Shown here one piece after another: positions 25,440 to 35,296 of a stretch of DNA of 64,000 nt (within the stretch, counting starts at the first letter, position 1; the number at the start of each line of letters is the position of its first letter). Origin of the DNA: Psychrobacter sp. Choline-02u-9. GTDB taxonomy: Bacteria > Pseudomonadota > Gammaproteobacteria > Pseudomonadales > Moraxellaceae. The stretch covers positions 1-64,000 of the forward strand of contig NZ_PJBF01000043.1 of the NCBI RefSeq assembly GCF_002836505.1, given 5' to 3'. The position numbers and the translations under genes were made by a program. The notes under the pieces were generated by a model. That model was given only the letters and a program-made list of their open reading frames with translations. It ran no database searches and was not told where the DNA came from.

Positions 25440-26114
25440 TTACAAAGACTCGGGGCGACGCTCTAATACTTCGTCAACCAAACCATACTCTTTGGCTTCT
25501 TGTGCATCTAACCAATAATCACGCTCAACGTCTTTTTCGATTTTTTCTACTGGCTGACCAGTGCGCTCAGCTAAGATACTATTTAGACGTGCACGAGTTT
25601 TAAGGATTTCACGAGCATTAATTTCGATATCTGTTGCTTGACCCTGCGCGCCGCCTGAAGGCTGATGAATCATAACGCGAGCATTAGCAAGTGAATAGCG
25701 CTTGCCTTTTTGACCAGCGGCCAATAGGAATGAACCCATGCTGTAAGCACCGCCCATACAGATAGTAGATACTTCAGGTTTGATGAAGTTCATGGTATCG
25801 AAAATAGCCAAGCCAGCGCTTACTGAGCCGCCTGGTGAGTTGATATACAAATGGATATCTTTGTCAGGGTTTTCAGCTTCTAAGAATAGCAACTGGGCAA
25901 CGATAAGGTTAGCCATGTTGTCTTCGACCTGACCGGTCAAAAAGATAACGCGCTCACGTAATAGACGTGAAAAAATATCAAACGAGCGTTCACCGCGTGA
26001 GGACTGTTCAACCACCATAGGTACTAAAGCCGCTTGTGTGGTCTGTACTTCTTTGTGCGCACTCATCAGCATATCAAAATGCGGGTTGGCAGTGATGCGA
26101 TCATAATCTGTCAT
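25440..26114 (-). CDS. clpP: ATP-dependent Clp protease proteolytic subunit
   Basis: Serine protease that forms the barrel of the ClpXP machine. The catalytic Ser lies in [14 protein letters not shown] and the His in [17 protein letters not shown], with the Asp in the C-terminal part ([11 protein letters not shown]). At 224 residues it includes a short N-terminal propeptide region. A heat-shock-type promoter lies about 80 nt upstream. The ATG is preceded by AGGACTTTTCT, a modest ribosome site. Confidence 0.98.
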
Positions 26115-26198
26115 AGAAAAGTCCTATCGATAAATGTATAAAATAAAAATGGATTGAATGATTTTATTGTCTAGTAGTTTTTGACTAATGGGTTGTTT

Positions 26199-26225
26199 AT
26201 AAGGGGGCTGCGCTCACTATTCAAG
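26199..26225 (-). promoter_or_regulatory. Candidate sigma-32 heat-shock promoter of clpP
   Basis: On the minus strand, CTTGAAT (26225-26219) and CCCCTTAT (26206-26199) are separated by 12 bp. This is close to the sigma-32 consensus CTTGAAA - 11 to 16 bp - CCCCATNT. The implied start site would give clpP a leader of roughly 75-80 nt. Heat-shock control of clpP is well established in E. coli. Confidence 0.65.
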
Positions 26226-26558
26226 CCTACAAAACTGGTTTGTGCATAAAATAGGTGAAAAAGTGACCCTCCGATATTGCTAGGACTCATTACTTATATT
26301 AAAACTGATACTAAAAATACGTCTAGAAGTAGATAAATACTATCTTATCTATTATCAAGTCGTACAGATATCGACAGTATCTGTATCGATACAAATAGCG
26401 TAAATCATGTCTGACCTGACTTTTTAACATAGAATACCTGATTAATAGCCCTATAATCCACCTATCTTACTGACTAAGCCTGCAAATAGTTATGCGTTTA
26501 GTATTTTTGCTTATCTAATGTCCTCAGAGAGTATTGCGCTAACAATAACGCTAAAAAA

Positions 26559-26594
26559 TGCACCGTTATGGACAAAATGTACCGTTTTGGTGCA
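26559..26594 (+). promoter_or_regulatory. Pair of NtrC-type binding sites
   Basis: TGTACCGTTTTGGTGCA (26578-26594) matches the NtrC dyad TGCACC-N5-GGTGCA at all but one position. TGCACCGTTATGGACAA (26559-26575) matches its left half and the central GG. The two lie 19 bp apart start to start, about two helical turns. They are upstream of the urease operon, a classic NtrC-regulated target in enteric bacteria. Confidence 0.6.
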
Positions 26595-26755
26595 AATATC
26601 TGCTGATTTTATAAATAGATAAGGCTCAAAAAACGTTTAGAAAATAGCTGGAAATATACGGTTATTTTTATCGTCCAATCCAAAAAAGAAAAAGCACAGA
26701 CAAATCAAAGTTTTGAGTTGGTAAGGTTTTTATTTGACTATCTGCTATCAAGAGT

Positions 26756-26771
26756 TGGCACAGTGCTTGTA
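26756..26771 (+). promoter_or_regulatory. Candidate sigma-54 promoter of the urease operon
   Basis: TGGCAC-N5-TTGTA (26756-26771) fits the sigma-54 consensus TGGCAC-N5-TTGCA with correct -24/-12 spacing and one deviation at the usually conserved C of the -12 GC. It lies about 160 bp downstream of the two NtrC-type dyads and about 205 bp before ureD, a usual enhancer-promoter geometry. Confidence 0.5.
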
Positions 26772-26977
26772 TCAATAAAAACATTGACGCTTTTATTTAT
26801 CGTGGTGCGCTATAGGCACGATAAATGGTGTACGCTGTATTTCTCCGTTATTATTCTGATATTACTGTCGCTAATGTACTGTAGTTAACGATTGGCAATA
26901 GGGTTCTTAACACATAGCAAATGATAGCTGTCATACAAAATACTGAAACATATTTAATTGGTAAATGAGTATATAAA

Positions 26978-28006
26978 ATGAGTTGGGCCTCTTCTTTAGC
27001 ATTAAGCTTTGACACTGTTAGCAGTACAAGTACGGCCAAAGAAGGTACGGCTGATAACTCAAAAACGCGGCTTTATCATCGTAAGCATACAGGTGCCTTG
27101 ATGGTACAGCGTGCTCTATATCCTGAGCCAAGCGTACAGCAGGGTATTTGTCACATACTAATGTTGTACCCGCCAGCCGGTATCGCAGGTGGCGATACGT
27201 TGACCATAGACCTAAACTTAGATAGTGGTAGCCACGCTGTTATCACCACACCAGGGGCAGGTAAGTGGTACGGCAAGGACAGCGTTAGCCAAAAACATAA
27301 AGCTCCGTTGGGCGCCAACGACACTCACCAAAGTATGGATCAAAATGAAATAGCTGCCTATGCAAGCCAACATGTACAGGCAAACCTCGCAGCACATACC
27401 CGTTTAGAATGGCTGCTGCAAGAGAGTATCATTTATAACGAAGCCAATATGCATGCAGTGAGTCGCTTCGATTTGACAGATTCCTCTAGTCTACTAACAT
27501 GGGAGATTAGCGTATTTGGGCGGCAAGCTTACGACGAGCAGTTTTTGCAAGGGCATTATCATACTGGATTGAACATCTACCGAGATGGTAAGGTTGTCGT
27601 TGCTGAGCGAGTGGCACAGGCAGCACAAAATCGCTGGTTTACCTCAAATTTAGGATTAGCAAACCAGCATATTTATGGATCGTTTTGGGCAGTACCAAGC
27701 TTAATCGATGTCCATGACAATCTTGCACTCTCCGCGTCACAAACCACGCAATCGACCGAAACAGCCCAAGCAACTATCAAGCAGTCATTAACCCGCTATC
27801 TAGACAATACCGTAGCAGCATTACGACAAGTAATTGCTCAAGCACAACTGCCTGTCTACTGCACTCATAATTGCCAAGCGATCAATATCCGCTACATTGG
27901 CTCAGATGTACGAGGTTGTTTTGAAGCGTTTTATCAGCTAAGAGAAGTCTTGCGAGATCATTGGTGGCAACTTGAGCCTTGTCGTCCACGTATTTGGGAC
28001 ACCTAA
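26978..28006 (+). CDS. ureD: Urease accessory protein UreD
   Basis: First gene of the urease operon. UreD binds apo-urease and forms the UreD-UreF-UreG platform for nickel delivery. Recognised by RLYHRKHTGALMVQRALYPE near residue 32, the YPPAGIAGGDTL motif and TTPGAGKWYG, plus CRPRIWDT at the end. It is 342 residues, longer than the usual 270-280, with extra polar sequence around residues 105-125. The ribosome site before the ATG is weak. A spacer of 118 nt separates it from ureA. Confidence 0.95.
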   Translation: MSWASSLALSFDTVSSTSTAKEGTADNSKTRLYHRKHTGALMVQRALYPEPSVQQGICHILMLYPPAGIAGGDTLTIDLNLDSGSHAVITTPGAGKWYGKDSVSQKHKAPLGANDTHQSMDQNEIAAYASQHVQANLAAHTRLEWLLQESIIYNEANMHAVSRFDLTDSSSLLTWEISVFGRQAYDEQFLQGHYHTGLNIYRDGKVVVAERVAQAAQNRWFTSNLGLANQHIYGSFWAVPSLIDVHDNLALSASQTTQSTETAQATIKQSLTRYLDNTVAALRQVIAQAQLPVYCTHNCQAINIRYIGSDVRGCFEAFYQLREVLRDHWWQLEPCRPRIWDT

Positions 28007-28124
28007 TACGGCCACTTTTAATAATGAAACTAAGATATATTGCGACTATTTTTAATCGATATTTAATGCTTTGAAAACCTCTAATCTGCTATAAATATAA
28101 TGATAAGTACAATAAGGAATTGTC

Positions 28125-28427
28125 ATGCACCTGACCCCAACAGAAAAAGACAAACTCATGCTATTTACGGCTGGTATGGTGGCTGAGCGTCGCAAAAATC
28201 GCGGTGTTAAACTCAATTATCCCGAAGCCATCGCTTATATCAGTATGCTGCTGATGGAAGGCGCACGAGACGGTAAAAGAGTCGCCGAGCTGATGAGTGA
28301 AGGTGCTACGTATTTGTCTGCTGATGATGTCATGGAAGGGGTGGCAGAGATGGTCGATGAAGTGCAAATCGAGGCGACCTTTCCTGATGGCACCAAACTG
28401 GTCACGGTACATAATCCCATCGTGTAA
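28125..28427 (+). CDS. ureA: Urease subunit gamma
   Basis: Smallest structural subunit of urease, 100 residues. The start [20 protein letters not shown] and the stretches [12 protein letters not shown] and [21 protein letters not shown] are all diagnostic. AAGGAATT lies 7 nt before the ATG. It is separate here, while the beta and alpha subunits that follow are fused. Confidence 0.98.
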
Positions 28428-28483
28428 CGCTGTATACCATTGTTATAGCACTGAAATGCTCACTATAAAATAAGGCGGCTACC

Positions 28484-30667
28484 ATGCAAGCAGGCGAATA
28501 CCATATCCAAGATGGCGATATTATCTTAAACCAAGGGCGACAGGTGCAGACCATCAGTGTGAGTAATACTGGTGATAGACCTATCCAAATCGGCTCGCAT
28601 TATCACTTTTATGAAGTCAATGATGCCTTGAGTTTTGAGAGAGAGCAGACTCGGGGTTTTCGTCTCAATATTATCTCTGGAACCGCCGTACGTTTTGAAC
28701 CTGGTCAATCGCGGGAAGTAGAATTGGTAGCATACGCTGGCAAGCAAGATGTATATGGTTTTGCTGGGCGCGTCATGGGCGCCGCTCATCCAGACGAAGC
28801 ATTAGAGAGCACTACTGATAAAAAGGTAACCACTACTTCGCAGAAGCGAGTCAGTCGTCGTATTTATGCTGAGCATTTTGGTCCTACCACAGGTGACAAG
28901 GTTCGCCTAGCCGACACGGAATTGTGGCTACAGGTTGAGGCTGACTTGACCAGTTATCAGGATACTGATCAGGCTGCAGCACTGCAAAACGGTGAGCGTG
29001 CTAGCAAACCTATCGAGATAAAAGGCGAAGAAGTCAAATTTGGTGGTGGTAAAGTCATCCGTGATGGCATGGGACAAGGACAGTTACTAGGCGCGGAAGT
29101 TGCCGATACGGTTATTACCAATGCATTGGTCGTTGACTATACAGGCATCTATAAAGCGGATATTGGTATCAAAGATGGTCGTATCAGTGCCATTGGCAAA
29201 GCGGGCAATCCTGATATCCAGCCCGCTATTGATATTCCTATTGGCGGAGCTACCGAAATCATCTCTGGCGAAGGCAAAATCCTGACAGCAGGTGGCGTCG
29301 ATAGTCATATTCATTTTATCGCGCCCCAGCAGTGTGAGACGGCGCTTATGTCAGGGGTAACTACGATGCTGGGCGGCGGCACAGGGCCAGCTCAAGGTAC
29401 GCTCGCTACTACTTGTACACCAGGGGCGTATCATATTGCCTCAATGCTAAAGTCTACTGATAGTATCCCTATGAATATTGGACTACTGGGTAAAGGCAAT
29501 GTGAGTGTACCAGAACCCATTGCTGAACAAATCGAAGCAGGTGCCGTGGGGCTGAAGCTACATGAAGATTGGGGTACAACACCGCAAGCTATTGATAACT
29601 GCTTGAGTGTCGCTGACGACTATGATGTGCAGGTGGCCATTCATACCGATACTTTAAATGAAAGTGGCTATCTAGAGAGTACACTTGCTGCTTTTAAAAA
29701 CCGCTGTATCCATACTTTTCATACTGAAGGGGCAGGTGGTGGCCATGCGCCCGATATTCTAAAGGCTATTGGCGAGTCGCATGTGCTGCCATCTTCAACC
29801 AACCCAACGCGACCATACACCGTCAATACCATTGATGAGCATCTCGATATGCTGATGGTTTGTCATCACCTAAGTCCTGCTATTGCTGAAGATGTGGCCT
29901 TTGCTGAGAGCCGTATTCGTCAAGAAACCATCGCCGCAGAAGATATCTTGCATGATTTGGGTGCTATCTCGATGATGAGTAGTGATTCGCAAGCGATGGG
30001 GCGGGTGGGTGAAGTAGTCATCCGTACATGGCAAACCGCGCACAAAATGAAAGTTCAACGTGGCCATCTAGCGCCAGATGCAACGGCGAACATTGAGGAT
30101 GAGCAACAGTACATCACTTTGACAGACTATGACCAAAGCGCGGATAACGACAACTTTCGTATCAAACGCTATATCGCAAAATATACCATAAATCCTGCGA
30201 TTACTCACGGTATCAGCGATATGGTCGGCTCAATCGAAGTAGGTAAATGGGCAGATATAGTGCTATGGTCGCCCAAGTTTTTTGGGGTAAAGCCTGAGTG
30301 CATCATCAAAGGCGGGCTTATCGCTGCGGTACCGATGGGCGATATTAATGCCTCTATTCCTACTCCTCAGCCTGTGCATTATCGTCCTATGTTTGCTACA
30401 TATCCAAAATCGGTTGCCCAGACCAGCATTACCTTTATGTCGCAAGCGGCGATCGACAAACAAGTGGATAAGCAGCTTGGGTTGACCAAAGTCATTCAGC
30501 CAGTACACGGCATCCGTAAAATTCGTAAAAGCGATATGCGCTTTAACAGCTACTGCCCAGATATGGATATCAATCCTGAGACTTATGAAGTACGTGCCGA
30601 TGGTAAGACACTGACCTGCGAGCCAGCTGATGTATTACCCATGGCACAGCGTTACTTCTTATTTTAA
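28484..30667 (+). CDS. ureC: Fused urease beta-alpha subunit (UreB-UreC)
   Basis: One 727-residue protein covering UreB (about 1-102: [28 protein letters not shown]) and UreC (about 124-727: [20 protein letters not shown] onward), joined by about 20 polar residues. No stop or usable start separates them; the nearest in-frame Met is residue 98, inside UreB. UreC keeps the nickel ligands His275 and His277 (SHIHF), the carbamylated Lys358 (VGLKLH), His387 (IHTD), His413 (HTEGAGGG) and Asp501 (SSDSQAMGR), and the flap residues Cys460-His461. About 23 extra residues (158-180) sit before [10 protein letters not shown]. Urea hydrolysis to ammonia and carbamate in the cytosol. All key residues are present, so activity is likely. 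Confidence 0.95.
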
Positions 30668-30829
30668 AGCTTATGATGCACGTTTATAAGAGCTCTAGGA
30701 CAGTGAGCCATAAACCATGTATACCAATAGTCAGTTGGTTTCTTGAATGAGATCGTATCTTTATTCCCAACACTTTTACCATCAATACTATTGACCAATA
30801 GTTTGAGCAACAACAGCCAGAGAAGAATA

Positions 30830-31468
30830 ATGAAAATATTTAATACCCGTTTAAGTACGCTTAGCGATGTCCAAAAAGCGCAATTGGCAGAACAGTATCA
30901 AGCCGATGATTATCTGCTGTTAAACTTTGATACTCGTCAGCATTCTCGCTTTAGAGCCATTACTGTTTCAGGTGAGGCAGTTGGTGTTGACTTGCCTCGT
31001 ACAGGTGTACTAAAAGGAAATGATGTCCTTATCAATGCAGCAGGGGAGTTGATGCAAGTCATCGCCAAGCCGCAAGCGGTGACCAAAGTGACGGCTGCAG
31101 ATGATTTTCTACTAATGAAAGGCGCTTATCACTTGGGCAACCGTCATGTGCCATTGATGTTTGACCACAGTTTTGATCAGGGTAATGCAGGCTATGCGTT
31201 ATATTTTGAAAACGATCATGTACTTGCACAAATGTTAGAAAATCTTGGTCTACATATCGAGTCTACGTCAGTGCCTTTTGAGCCTGAAACGGGCGCTTAT
31301 CAAACGGGACAAGGGCATGCGCATGGCCACTCTCACTCCCATGCACATTCGCATAGTGACTCTCATAGTCATAAGAAAAGTCATAGCCATGACGAAAGCC
31401 ACAGCCACGGACATCACCATAGCCATAGCCATCATGATGCGCCTGTAGGTCGTTCAAATGATGGTTGA
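30830..31468 (+). CDS. ureE: Urease accessory protein UreE (nickel metallochaperone)
   Basis: Delivers nickel to the UreG-containing activation complex. The core shows DDYLLLNFDTRQHSRFRA, AYHLGNRHVPLMF with the metal-site His, and YALYFENDHVL. The tail (163-202) holds 19 histidines in 40 residues, interleaved with Ser, Gly, Ala and Asp, a strong nickel reservoir. I chose the ATG at 30830 (212 residues) because the family begins at MKIFNT and AGAAGAA precedes it; an upstream TTG would add 29 unrelated residues. Its stop overlaps ureF by 11 nt. Confidence 0.95.
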   Translation: MKIFNTRLSTLSDVQKAQLAEQYQADDYLLLNFDTRQHSRFRAITVSGEAVGVDLPRTGVLKGNDVLINAAGELMQVIAKPQAVTKVTAADDFLLMKGAYHLGNRHVPLMFDHSFDQGNAGYALYFENDHVLAQMLENLGLHIESTSVPFEPETGAYQTGQGHAHGHSHSHAHSHSDSHSHKKSHSHDESHSHGHHHSHSHHDAPVGRSNDG

Positions 31469-32252
31469 TACCAGTGCTCAGCCTGCTCAATCTGCCCAAC
31501 TTGGACAGCTACTGATGCTGGCATCGAGCAATTTGCCGATTGGTAGTTATACCTATTCGCAAGGTGTGGAGTCAGCGATTGAGTCAGGGGTTGTCTCTGA
31601 TGAAGCCAGTACGCTTACATTTATGCAGGACTATCTAGCGCTTGCAGTGATTGGCTACGAGTTGCCCGTATTAGGGCTAATAATGTGTGCGCTCAGCCAA
31701 GGTCATGAAGCGCTAGCGGCAAATCTGGCACATGATTATCATGCTGGTCTCGAGAGTAAAGAGTTTGTACTGGAGTCGCAGCAATTGGCACAGGCAATGG
31801 TGTCTTGGCTCAACGAAGTCCTGAGTCTTGGCATACCGGCCGAAATACCTGAAGATGGGTTTTTACCGCTATTTGCTCATGTTGCTCAGCATTGGCAACT
31901 GCCACTAGCGCAGTCGATGACTACTTATGGATTTGCGCAATTAGAGAATATGGTGCTCGCCGCTGTCAAGACAGTGCCGCTAGGACAAATGGCAGGTCAG
32001 CGTATTCTGTGGCAATTGCAAAGCGATCTGGGTGCTCAGGTTGATGCTCTAAGCGCTAATGTGCAACAGGCTTTCGATGCTTTAATCACATCGATAAATA
32101 CTATGGATACCTTAGATACAAGTGAAGAACCAGACTGTCAGCAGTTATGCCAAGACCTCTATGAATCGCTTAATATCTCGAATAACTTGCCCAATTTGGC
32201 TATTCTTTCGAGCATGCACGAGGAGCAATACAGTCGGTTGTTCCGCTCATAA
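31458..32252 (+). CDS. ureF: Urease accessory protein UreF
   Basis: Partner of UreD and UreG in the urease activation complex, controlling GTPase use by UreG. Family stretches are LLMLASSNLPIGSYTYSQGVESAIE near residue 18 (first 20 residues of this are typical), MTTYGFAQLENM, and a C-terminal MHEEQYSRLFRS end. Length 264 is slightly above average, from a polar region near 215-235. It starts inside the ureE stop region, so translation is probably coupled. Confidence 0.95.
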   Translation: MMVDTSAQPAQSAQLGQLLMLASSNLPIGSYTYSQGVESAIESGVVSDEASTLTFMQDYLALAVIGYELPVLGLIMCALSQGHEALAANLAHDYHAGLESKEFVLESQQLAQAMVSWLNEVLSLGIPAEIPEDGFLPLFAHVAQHWQLPLAQSMTTYGFAQLENMVLAAVKTVPLGQMAGQRILWQLQSDLGAQVDALSANVQQAFDALITSINTMDTLDTSEEPDCQQLCQDLYESLNISNNLPNLAILSSMHEEQYSRLFRS

Positions 32253-32309
32253 TTTTATCTTTATTTCTATTTATACTTATTAATATACAAACTGTTTTAG
32301 GAAATTAAT

Positions 32310-32999
32310 ATGTCTCTAACTCCGCTCAAACCAAAAAACTCTAATGTTGCATCAGATGTACAAACTGATAGTGATAGCCAGAAACCATCTTCTGCCTTAT
32401 CGTGCTTACGCCTTGGTATTGGCGGGCCAGTTGGTAGTGGTAAGACTGCTTTGACTTTAAGGCTATGCCAAAACCTGCGTGATACGGTCAATATGGCAGT
32501 GGTGACCAATGACATCTATACCAAAGAAGATTCAGAGTTTTTGACCCGCAATGATGCCATGCCCGCTGAGCGTATCCGCGGCGTAGAGACGGGCGGCTGT
32601 CCGCATACGGCTATCCGCGAAGATGCTTCTATTAATCTGACTGCGATTGCTGAGCTACAAGCGACTTTTGAAGGGTTGGAGTTGATTATCATTGAGTCAG
32701 GTGGCGACAATCTAGCTGCGACATTTAGCCCAGAGTTGTCTGACTTGACCTTGTACGTCATTGATGTCTCTGCAGGCGATAAGATACCTCGTAAAGGTGG
32801 CCCCGGCATTACCAAGTCTGATTTGTTGATTATTAATAAGACTGACCTTGCACCAATGGTTGGTGCTTCGCTTGAAGTGATGGAACGCGATGCCAAAAAA
32901 ATGCGTGGCGACAAACCTTTTGTTTTTAGCAATATGAAAACGGGTGATGGGCTAAATGAGATTATCGCCTTTATTAAAGAACATGGCATGCTTGCCTAA
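32310..32999 (+). CDS. ureG: Urease accessory GTPase UreG
   Basis: SIMIBI-class GTPase that drives nickel insertion into urease. The P-loop [13 protein letters not shown] is at about residues 38-50, with TNDIYTKED, the metal-binding [16 protein letters not shown] (Cys-Pro-His), the [14 protein letters not shown] switch and the NKTD specificity motif. It is 229 residues, with about 30 polar N-terminal residues in addition to the usual core. AGGAAATTA precedes the ATG. Confidence 0.98.
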
Positions 33000-33049
33000 A
33001 GAGCAGATGAGCTTTTACCATTAAAATATAAAGAATAAGGAAAAACCGC

Positions 33050-33799
33050 ATGACACAGTGTACAAAAGGTCTTCATATCGAAAGCTCTCGCTTTTCACAA
33101 GTGCTCTCAGCTCCTCATATCGTATCTGGTTCGGCTGTGATGACGTCACTAATGCTACCGTCATTGGCGCAGGCGCATTCAGGTCATATTCACTCGACTA
33201 CCGCGCAAGCGCCGTCATTTTTGGGTACGTTGCAAGCAGGACTGATGCATCCAGTAACTGGCCTTGATCATTTGTTTTTAGCAGTCGGCATGGGCATGTT
33301 GTTTTATGGCCTGCAAAAGCAGCGCTTAGGCATGATGTCATTGACGGCAGGGTTGTCATTAGGCGCGATATTGGGCACGGCTGGTGTGCTGATTGGCGGT
33401 ATTGCATTTGTTGCATCATCTGGGCTAATTGAAGTGGCAATATCACTGTCGGTAGTCGTATTGGCTATGGTCTTGATGAGCCAAAAAAGCAGACAAGAAG
33501 CATTCTCTGCTCAGACCCATACAGCACGCACGCCAAGTATTCAGCGGCTGTCATTGTTTGGTTTTGGTGGTCTGGCAGTGTTTCATGGCATGGCACACGC
33601 GATGGAAGTACCAGCGAATGTCGGTGTGAGCGGTCAGCTAGGATTTTATGCAGGGATGATGGTCACGATGCTAGCGCTATATGCAGTTGGTACGCTGGTT
33701 AGTCAGCAGTTGCAGCAACGCTTTAGTGATAGCTTGTGGTTACAGCGAGGACTAGTGCTGCTAGGATTGAGCGCCGTATTTGCACCTGTTTTGGTATAA
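33050..33799 (+). CDS. ureJ: HupE/UreJ family membrane protein
   Basis: A 249-residue membrane protein with about six to seven hydrophobic helices. The family motif HPVTGLDHLFLAVGMG near residue 66 carries the conserved His and Asp thought to handle nickel, and the early HSGHIH stretch follows a cleavable-looking signal (ending AQA near 43). FHGMAHAME near 180 is a further His-rich site. In urease operons such proteins are proposed nickel permeases or secondary transporters. It lies 51 nt after ureG, and a strong terminator follows, so it closes the operon. Confidence 0.88.
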   Translation: MTQCTKGLHIESSRFSQVLSAPHIVSGSAVMTSLMLPSLAQAHSGHIHSTTAQAPSFLGTLQAGLMHPVTGLDHLFLAVGMGMLFYGLQKQRLGMMSLTAGLSLGAILGTAGVLIGGIAFVASSGLIEVAISLSVVVLAMVLMSQKSRQEAFSAQTHTARTPSIQRLSLFGFGGLAVFHGMAHAMEVPANVGVSGQLGFYAGMMVTMLALYAVGTLVSQQLQQRFSDSLWLQRGLVLLGLSAVFAPVLV

Positions 33800-33859
33800 A
33801 GCGCGCTTTATAGTACAAGTACGATGTTTGCTGCTGAACTTACTTAGCTAGCGAACGCC

Positions 33860-33903
33860 ATAAAAAATGCGCCCCCGATCAAAAGGTCGGGGGCGCATTT
33901 TAG
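33860..33903. terminator. Strong bidirectional terminator after the urease operon
   Basis: Stem ATGCGCCCCCGA / TCGGGGGCGCAT with flanking A-run and T-run. It separates the rightward urease operon from the leftward tig gene. Confidence 0.93.
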
Positions 33904-33952
33904 TTTTGATAACCGACTACAGCATATCTCAAAAGACAGCTTGTCGTATTAA

Positions 33953-35296
33953 TTACATTGCTTGCTGCTGTTGTTGCTGAGCAGCTAGCAAATCTTGGTA
34001 GCTCACTTCTTTATCCGTGACTTTACCTTGCTCGATTAGATAATCAACCACTTGGTCTTCTAGAACGACAGACTCAATGTTCGCGCGCTGTTGCTTATCA
34101 GTGGTGTAGTACTCGATCACTTCTGCTGGATCTTCATAGTTTTCAGCGGCTTCTTTAATGAAAGTCTCAACGCGGTCTTGGTCCACTTCGATACCTTTGG
34201 TGTCGATAACACGAGCAACGATGATGCCAAGACGGGCAGCACGTAGCGCTTGCTCTTCGAACAATTCATTTGGCAGCATGTCTTTATCGAAGCTATCAGC
34301 ATTGGCACCGAATTGCTGAGAAAAACGTTGCATCATCATGTTGCGTTGACGCTCGATTTCTTGCTCTAGCATGGCGTTTGGCACATCAAACTCGTTCTTT
34401 TCTAGTAGCGCATCAAAAGTCGCTTGTTTTACTTGGCTACGCGCTGCGTTCTTGATTTCGCGTTCCATGTTTTTACGCACGTCTTCTTTCAACTTCTCAA
34501 CGCCGCCTTCTTTAACACCGAATAGCTCTAGGAACGCATCATCAATTTCAGGTAATTTTGATTTCTCAACCAATTTTACGTTGATTTTGAATTGCGCTTC
34601 TTTACCCGCTAAGTTTTCAGCTTGATAATCTTCTGGGAACGTGACGTCGATCACTTTTTCTTCGCCAGCTTTCATGCCTTTGATACCATCTTCAAAGCCT
34701 GGAATCATCTGGTTGCTACCTATGACCAATTTGAAGTCTTCAGATGAGCCGCCTTCGAATTTTTCGCCGTCGATTGAGCCTTCAAAGTCAAAGGTTACTT
34801 GGTTGTCTTTGGCCGCTTTACCTTTTTTCTCAACGAACTCTTCACGTTGTTTTTGTAGGTTTTCGATCATTGTGTCGACGTCTTCTTCGCTAACTTTAGC
34901 CGTGTGACGCTCAACTTCGATTTCATCGATACCTTGGACGTCAACTTCTGGGAAGATCTCGACAGTGGCTTGATAAACCAAGAAATCGTCTTCTAGTTTT
35001 ACATCGTCGATGTTAGGCATGCCAACTGCGCGGATGTCTTCAGATTTGATCGCTTCAAAAACGGTATCACGGATCACATCGTTGATGACTTCTTGTTGAA
35101 TGCCAGCACCGTACTGTGAACGGATATGTGACATAGGGACATTACCTTTACGGAAACCGTCAATCTTGGCAGTTTTCGCTACTTGGCGAATACGGCCTTC
35201 AACTTTGTTTTGAATTTTTTCAACGGGTACTTTAACCGTTAGCTGAGTTTCTTTATTAGATAGCTTGTTGGTTGTGACTTGTAAATCTGTAGCCAT
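33953..35296 (-). CDS. tig: Trigger factor
   Basis: Ribosome-associated chaperone with peptidyl-prolyl isomerase activity. The N-terminal ribosome-binding part has the [12 protein letters not shown] signature near residue 48 and the FKBP domain spans about 150-245 ([30 protein letters not shown]). The C-terminal substrate-binding arms follow, ending in a Gln-rich tail. Length 447 is normal. It points toward clpP, as in the conserved tig-clpP-clpX order, but the urease operon lies between them. Confidence 0.98.

Follow-up and report, generated by a model that had tools for sequence, protein, structure and literature searches.

A fused beta-alpha urease chain beside a free gamma subunit in Psychrobacter and related Moraxellaceae

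The urease operon in a 64,000-nucleotide stretch of DNA from Psychrobacter sp. Choline-02u-9 (contig NZ_PJBF01000043.1, positions 1 to 64,000; hereafter the window) very probably encodes a working nickel urease built from a free gamma subunit and one beta-alpha chain, with the fusion dating back to an ancestor of the genus and of two related genera. Urease is the textbook case of subunit fusion, with its subunits found as three chains, as gamma-beta plus alpha, or as one chain. A free gamma subunit together with a beta-alpha chain is a fourth urease layout, and the pair itself is already known to STRING.

A beta-alpha chain in a complete urease operon

The fused gene, ureBC, occupies positions 28484-30667 of the forward strand as a single open frame that runs from ATG to stop over 727 codons (727 aa; calculated mass 78.8 kDa). 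Pfam placed Urease_beta (PF00699) at residues 4-99, Urease_alpha at residues 122-260, and Amidohydro_1 at residues 266-614, while NCBIfam assigned residues 1-100 to UreB and 121-727 to UreC. These domain matches bear out the claim of the first-pass annotation that UreB and UreC lie in one frame, beta first, with neither a stop nor a start between them. On this basis, the chain comprises a beta domain (residues 1-99; 28484-28780, +), an inter-domain linker (residues 100-121; 28781-28846, +), and an alpha domain that holds the nickel and catalytic residues (residues 122-727; 28847-30664, +; assigned from Pfam, NCBIfam, and residue comparison). The linker, described earlier as polar and about 20 residues long, was found by codon reading to contain no stop and no in-frame ATG, GTG, or TTG, and an internal start that would yield a separate alpha subunit was rejected for this reason. 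In the genome, UreB occurs at a single place, and the fused protein likewise gave a single match.

The operon order is ureD-A-BC-E-F-G-hupE, all on the forward strand. The gamma subunit is, as had been noted, a free-standing gene (ureA, 28125-28427, 100 aa; PF00547, 1.3e-46; TIGR00193), and in each of 38 further fused loci whose gene order was examined, ureA directly preceded the fusion. Upstream of it lies the accessory gene ureD (26978-28006; PF01774, 1e-37), and downstream of the fusion follow ureE (30830-31468; PF05194 and PF02814), whose histidine-rich C-terminal tail was read directly, ureF (31458-32252; PF01730, 2.5e-25), ureG (32310-32999; TIGR00101, 4.4e-100), and a gene for a HupE/UreJ membrane protein (33050-33799; PF04955, 1.5e-16), which we take to be a probable nickel permease. 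The window thus contains complete gamma, beta, and alpha domains, the active-site residues, and ureD, E, F, and G, as expected of a nickel urease (UreABC).

Ten active-site residues were present in ureBC (H275, H277, K358, H360, H387, H413, C460, H461, R477, and D501) and were invariant in all 191 UreC sequences compared (65 fused and 126 unfused); their roles (nickel ligands, carbamylated lysine, catalytic His, and flap Cys) were presumed to be those of Klebsiella urease. The nickel ligands and catalytic residues are therefore intact, as first reported, and from such a catalytic site it is sound to infer that the fused urease should be active.

Some features around the operon deserve mention. 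The operon sits between clpP and tig, both on the reverse strand (window positions 25440-35296). Flanks of up to ~4-6 kb, some of them cut short by contig ends, were compared for 34 further fused loci of the family, a set outside the window's 26 closest relatives; clpP-clpX adjoined the operon in one of these loci only (L060) and tig in none. An Rfam match to RF02514 (5' ureB sRNA, 86.7 bits) at 29059-29342 on the reverse strand lies antisense to the alpha coding region, and it probably reflects similarity of the coding sequence, an antisense RNA being also possible. Residues 97-161, which span the join, aligned with PDB entry 2mm8, a fragment named 'Urease' (E 1.5e-6) that we take to be the plant urease peptide Jaburetox; the match speaks for homology of this region only.

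Predicted structure and a variable insert

The AlphaFold2 model of ureBC, computed from an alignment of 62 sequences, reached a mean pLDDT of 83 and a pTM of 0.90, with lower values along the linker (74 at residues 101-110 and 67 at residues 111-120). The five best Foldseek matches of the model were all plant ureases (TM-score 0.87-0.88 by query length). When aligned with jack bean urease (7kns) by VIA-align 2, the model matched end to end, with residues 1-727 lying on positions 132-840 of the plant chain (673 residues aligned, rmsd 2.6, Z 46.8); Klebsiella alpha chains tied with jack bean in Z (47.0) and covered residues 121-727 of the model only. These matches suggest that the fused chain resembles a plant urease minus its gamma part, a plant-like fold that is predicted here by a method trained on solved ureases.

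The alpha domain carries an insert close to its N-terminus (residues 158-180; 28955-29023, +). The loop at residues 153-180 has 28 residues in the window versus six in fused relatives that lack the insert, i.e., ~22 extra residues, so that the insert first read from the sequence is real, and a gap of about the same size opens opposite it in the jack bean alignment. This loop is hypervariable, ranging from 6 to 62 residues across the 61 fused family loci and taking the short six-residue form in seven of them (five of the genus and two of another genus), and the insert was not seen in four unrelated fused proteins (L113, L129, L138, and L140) examined at full length. Its length thus varies independently of the fusion. 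Since seven of the 61 fused loci and the four unrelated fusions do without it, we rejected the idea that the insert is part of the fusion and regard it as a separate event, probably a later one. With a pLDDT under 50 at residues 160-176, it is modelled as what is probably a disordered surface loop.

Distribution of the fusion

The fused protein found a match in 79 of 105 genomes of the genus, and the remaining 26 were without any match. The fused gene was present in 58/105 genomes and separate ureB and ureC genes in 22, with one genome (G013) having both. Fifty-six of the 58 fused genomes have an unbroken copy; in G013 the copy (L045) has a stop in the beta part, and in G075 it ends early (L055). 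These broken copies, together with the genomes that gave no match, indicate that the enzyme is dispensable in some species. A survey of the family (299 genomes, 147 with UreB) recovered three more fused loci (G110, G135, and G186) in two other genera, while the other 65 of the 68 UreB-bearing family genomes outside the genus had short frames only. The search for fusions in Psychrobacter and its relatives that had been proposed as a check was therefore positive, and it modifies the earlier view of the fusion as unusual: it does differ from the gamma-beta chain of Helicobacter and the one chain of plants, but with 58/105 genus genomes it is not the oddity of a single genome. The same distribution bears on the possibility that the fusion arose from an error of sequencing or assembly. 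We found no points in favor of such an error, and 60 other family loci from separate assemblies share the join while differing in their linkers, which refutes it and leaves it a negligible probability.

Beyond the family, the whole-genome surveys spanned one phylum. The fusion was found in none of the 140 UreB-matching genomes of the order outside the family, three of which (G309, G336, and G525) gave only fragments or a sub-threshold match, and in none of 83 further genomes of the class with above-cut-off matches, a count that leaves out two long-frame matches below the cut-off (G776 and G896). The phylum survey (149 of 398 genomes with a match) yielded, among the matches listed, one more fusion (G1056, confirmed as L113).

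Several other urease arrangements came to light in these genomes. In G013, the fused ureBC with its internal stop coexists with separate ureB and ureC genes of another lineage (L076), a situation that looks like a replacement of the native urease in progress. In G224, a distant second urease (L098, 49% identity in alpha) has a UreB frame of 234 aa that probably joins gamma to beta, and it accompanies the ordinary unfused L097 of that genome. On Acinetobacter plasmids (e.g., NZ_CP026416.1, 56158-58726), 6 of 30 records among the matches listed have a GNAT acetyltransferase annotated along with ureB and ureC, and the acetyltransferase gene is probably located between the two.

Origin of the family fusion and parallel cases

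A first tree, built from 119 of 191 UreC sequences so chosen that any two share less than 95% identity, united the fused family proteins in one clade (SH-aLRT 100), with the unfused ureases of Acinetobacter and its kin as the sister group (99). A second tree of 102 hand-chosen rows out of 210, with the longest branches among those left out, was concordant (99 for the fused clade and 99 for the sister grouping). Rows were dropped as duplicates (L001, L002, and L029-L031), for want of a hit (L117), or for want of UreC in the stretch (L090). The named Acinetobacter rows fell among rows of the same family in the first tree, and kinship of the window's family with Acinetobacter is suggested. These trees are most simply read as a single fusion event in the urease native to the family. 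In the genus, the unfused ureases (L066-L087 in 22 genomes; nine rows in the tree) have only 60-65% identity in alpha and grouped beside Halomonadaceae in seven of nine rows (support 100) and six of eight rows (99) in the two trees, with the other two rows near Oceanospirillaceae/Arenicella at weaker support in both. These unfused ureases thus look horizontally acquired, and further unfused family ureases (L088, L089, and L098) were also placed elsewhere in the 119-sequence tree.

Four beta-alpha fusions emerged from 86 loci checked outside this clade (80 named contigs, five phylum loci, and one order locus), namely L113 from a family that we label f271, Neptuniibacter marinus (L129), and two metagenome-assembled genomes, of Arenicella (L138) and Oceanobacter (L140). 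Four other long frames (L112, L114, L115, and L116) turned out not to be beta-alpha fusions, and L117, which had matched below the cut-off for the family, yielded no hit. The f271 family, probably alphaproteobacterial as judged by its tree neighbors, had UreB in 64 of 75 genomes, and 58 of its 67 UreB places lay in frames of at least 684 aa; the 20 places fetched comprised 17 complete beta-alpha fusions, two that were cut but spanned both halves, and one that ran off its contig.

A common origin of all bacterial beta-alpha fusions was rejected for each pair of groups by AU tests, with p values of 2.9e-6 for Moraxellaceae and f271, 2.6e-5 for Moraxellaceae and Oceanospirillaceae/Arenicella, and 2.2e-4 for f271 and Oceanospirillaceae/Arenicella. 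These tests used quick trees of 85 chosen rows out of 210, and the groups follow fusion state and taxon, the pairing having been made after the first tree was seen. The fusion thus apparently arose separately in at least two other bacterial lineages. The three Oceanospirillaceae/Arenicella rows lay on one side of a branch with a support of only 57, so that they could represent one or two events. In L113, L129, and L140, the linker contains an in-frame ATG, which makes a separate alpha start possible there.

Linker evolution and meaning of the fusion

Mechanistically, ureB and ureC of the family's own operon would have merged into one frame in the ancestor when the stop codon of ureB and the start codon of ureC were lost. 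The resulting chain would fold like the beta and alpha parts of a plant urease and join gamma, probably as (gamma, beta-alpha)3, with UreD, E, F, and G loading nickel as usual. The main mechanical effect would be that beta cannot dissociate and is made 1:1 with alpha. The C-terminus of beta would also be tied to alpha, which may limit the oligomer contacts of the ureB loops, and loops of ureB are tied to oligomeric state in a 2020 paper on Yersinia urease (PMC7547064). In Klebsiella urease, mass spectrometry is reported to show beta dissociating ahead of the other subunits (PMC4009401, a 2013 Cell paper), so a beta-alpha fusion would change the assembly order. Tethering beta to alpha may aid assembly, or it may be that nothing but the loss of alpha that any stop would cause preserves the frame.

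Across the 61 fused family loci, the linker is hypervariable in sequence and 18-53 aa long (in the stretch matching window residues 100-126) with the frame kept throughout, which is partly by construction as an open frame was what the loci, including the window, were selected for. Of the 61 linkers, 45, the window's included, are free of in-frame ATG, GTG, and TTG codons, and a start codon is present in the other 16. In the fused clade, we found no member with a split linker, and the unfused loci of the genus fall elsewhere in the tree. Pairs with an alpha dS of 0.2-1.0 gave median dN/dS values of 0.021 in beta (369 pairs), 0.020 in alpha with its insert left out (370 pairs), and 0.336 in the linker (320 pairs). 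The beta and alpha halves are thus under equal and strong purifying selection (dN/dS 0.02).

Such a pattern fits, with a probability that we place slightly short of even, a chance fusion that brought no benefit and whose frame is kept only to make alpha, the start and ribosome site of which were lost. Wherever the linker is without a start codon (45 loci), alpha lacks an ordinary start and would be lost through any stop; the fast evolution (dN/dS 0.34) and free length of the linker are as expected if only the frame matters; and 22 genomes of the genus use unfused ureases. By the trees and AU tests, the same pair has nonetheless been fused more than once, and the fusion is widespread in two lineages, which suggests that the fusion is at least readily tolerated. 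A neutral ratchet of this kind is compatible with all of our main description except the benefit to assembly. We consider it quite improbable that the chain is cut in the linker after translation to give an ordinary three-chain urease. The polar and fast-evolving linker, where model confidence is lower, is probably accessible, but it has no clear conserved site and varies freely in length and sequence, and the motif S-x-K-x-V/I-S/D/P-R that recurs before alpha in most loci also resembles an ordinary alpha N-terminus.

More tentatively, the fourth layout may have been reached at least three times because tying down beta helps assembly, cohesion, or nickel acceptance, an explanation that we hold to be possible though on the unlikely side. 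If true, these ureases would provide a naturally occurring exception to the way in which subunit fusions tend to copy the existing assembly order, and possibly a second route towards a plant-like single chain. Returning to our main reading of a working urease fused in an ancestor of the genus and its two relatives, the layout is the norm in much of one genus and is also widespread in a second family, apparently through independent origins, and the occurrence of fused and unfused enzymes within one genus or family offers natural pairs for comparing adaptive with neutral fusion. We also expect that gene finders looking for separate ureB and ureC may mislabel fused operons.

Comparison with known ureases

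Three layouts appear in the available text of the literature on urease, i.e., three-chain, two-chain (gamma-beta plus alpha), and one-chain (PMC10100864 and PMC7547064). A STRING-based survey already names beta and alpha among the pairs that fuse, STRING listing beta as fusing with alpha, and states that such a fusion would not conserve the order (PMC4009401). Apart from this STRING statement, no description of bacterial ureases that pair a free gamma with a fused beta-alpha chain was found in the accessible portions of the open-licence literature, which also took in PMC3816311, PMC10459573, PMC6862595, PMC5785014, and PMC9723696.

The closest relative of the enzyme is the unfused three-chain urease of Acinetobacter and other Moraxellaceae, which forms the sister clade and shares the same operon parts in most cases. 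The unfused Moraxellaceae ureases (L091-L097 and L099-L101) have ~71-73% identity in alpha and 65-75% in beta. They differ in that beta and alpha are separate genes in the Acinetobacter type and fused in the window, which, having both in one gene, also sets the enzyme apart from the Klebsiella type. Helicobacter urease likewise has two chains per functional unit, but it joins gamma to beta, whereas in the window the end of ureA (28427) lies before the start of the fused frame (28484), which leaves gamma free.

Plant ureases (jack bean 3la4/7kns and pigeon pea 4g7e) are similar to ureBC in having beta followed by a linker and alpha, and in their full-length structural match. They differ in that gamma is also joined at the front of the plant chain (PMC10100864), while in the window it is a separate gene. 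The identity of ureBC with plant urease is ~52%, and Klebsiella alpha alone scores higher (868 vs 810 bits), so that nothing in these comparisons, made with a tree that leaves plants aside, points to a common ancestry of the join. The fusions of f271, Neptuniibacter, Oceanobacter, and Arenicella have the same layout as the window, with a free gamma and a beta-alpha frame, and are distinguished from it by their separate origins (tree and AU tests) and, in the four examined at full length, by an alpha loop without the insert.
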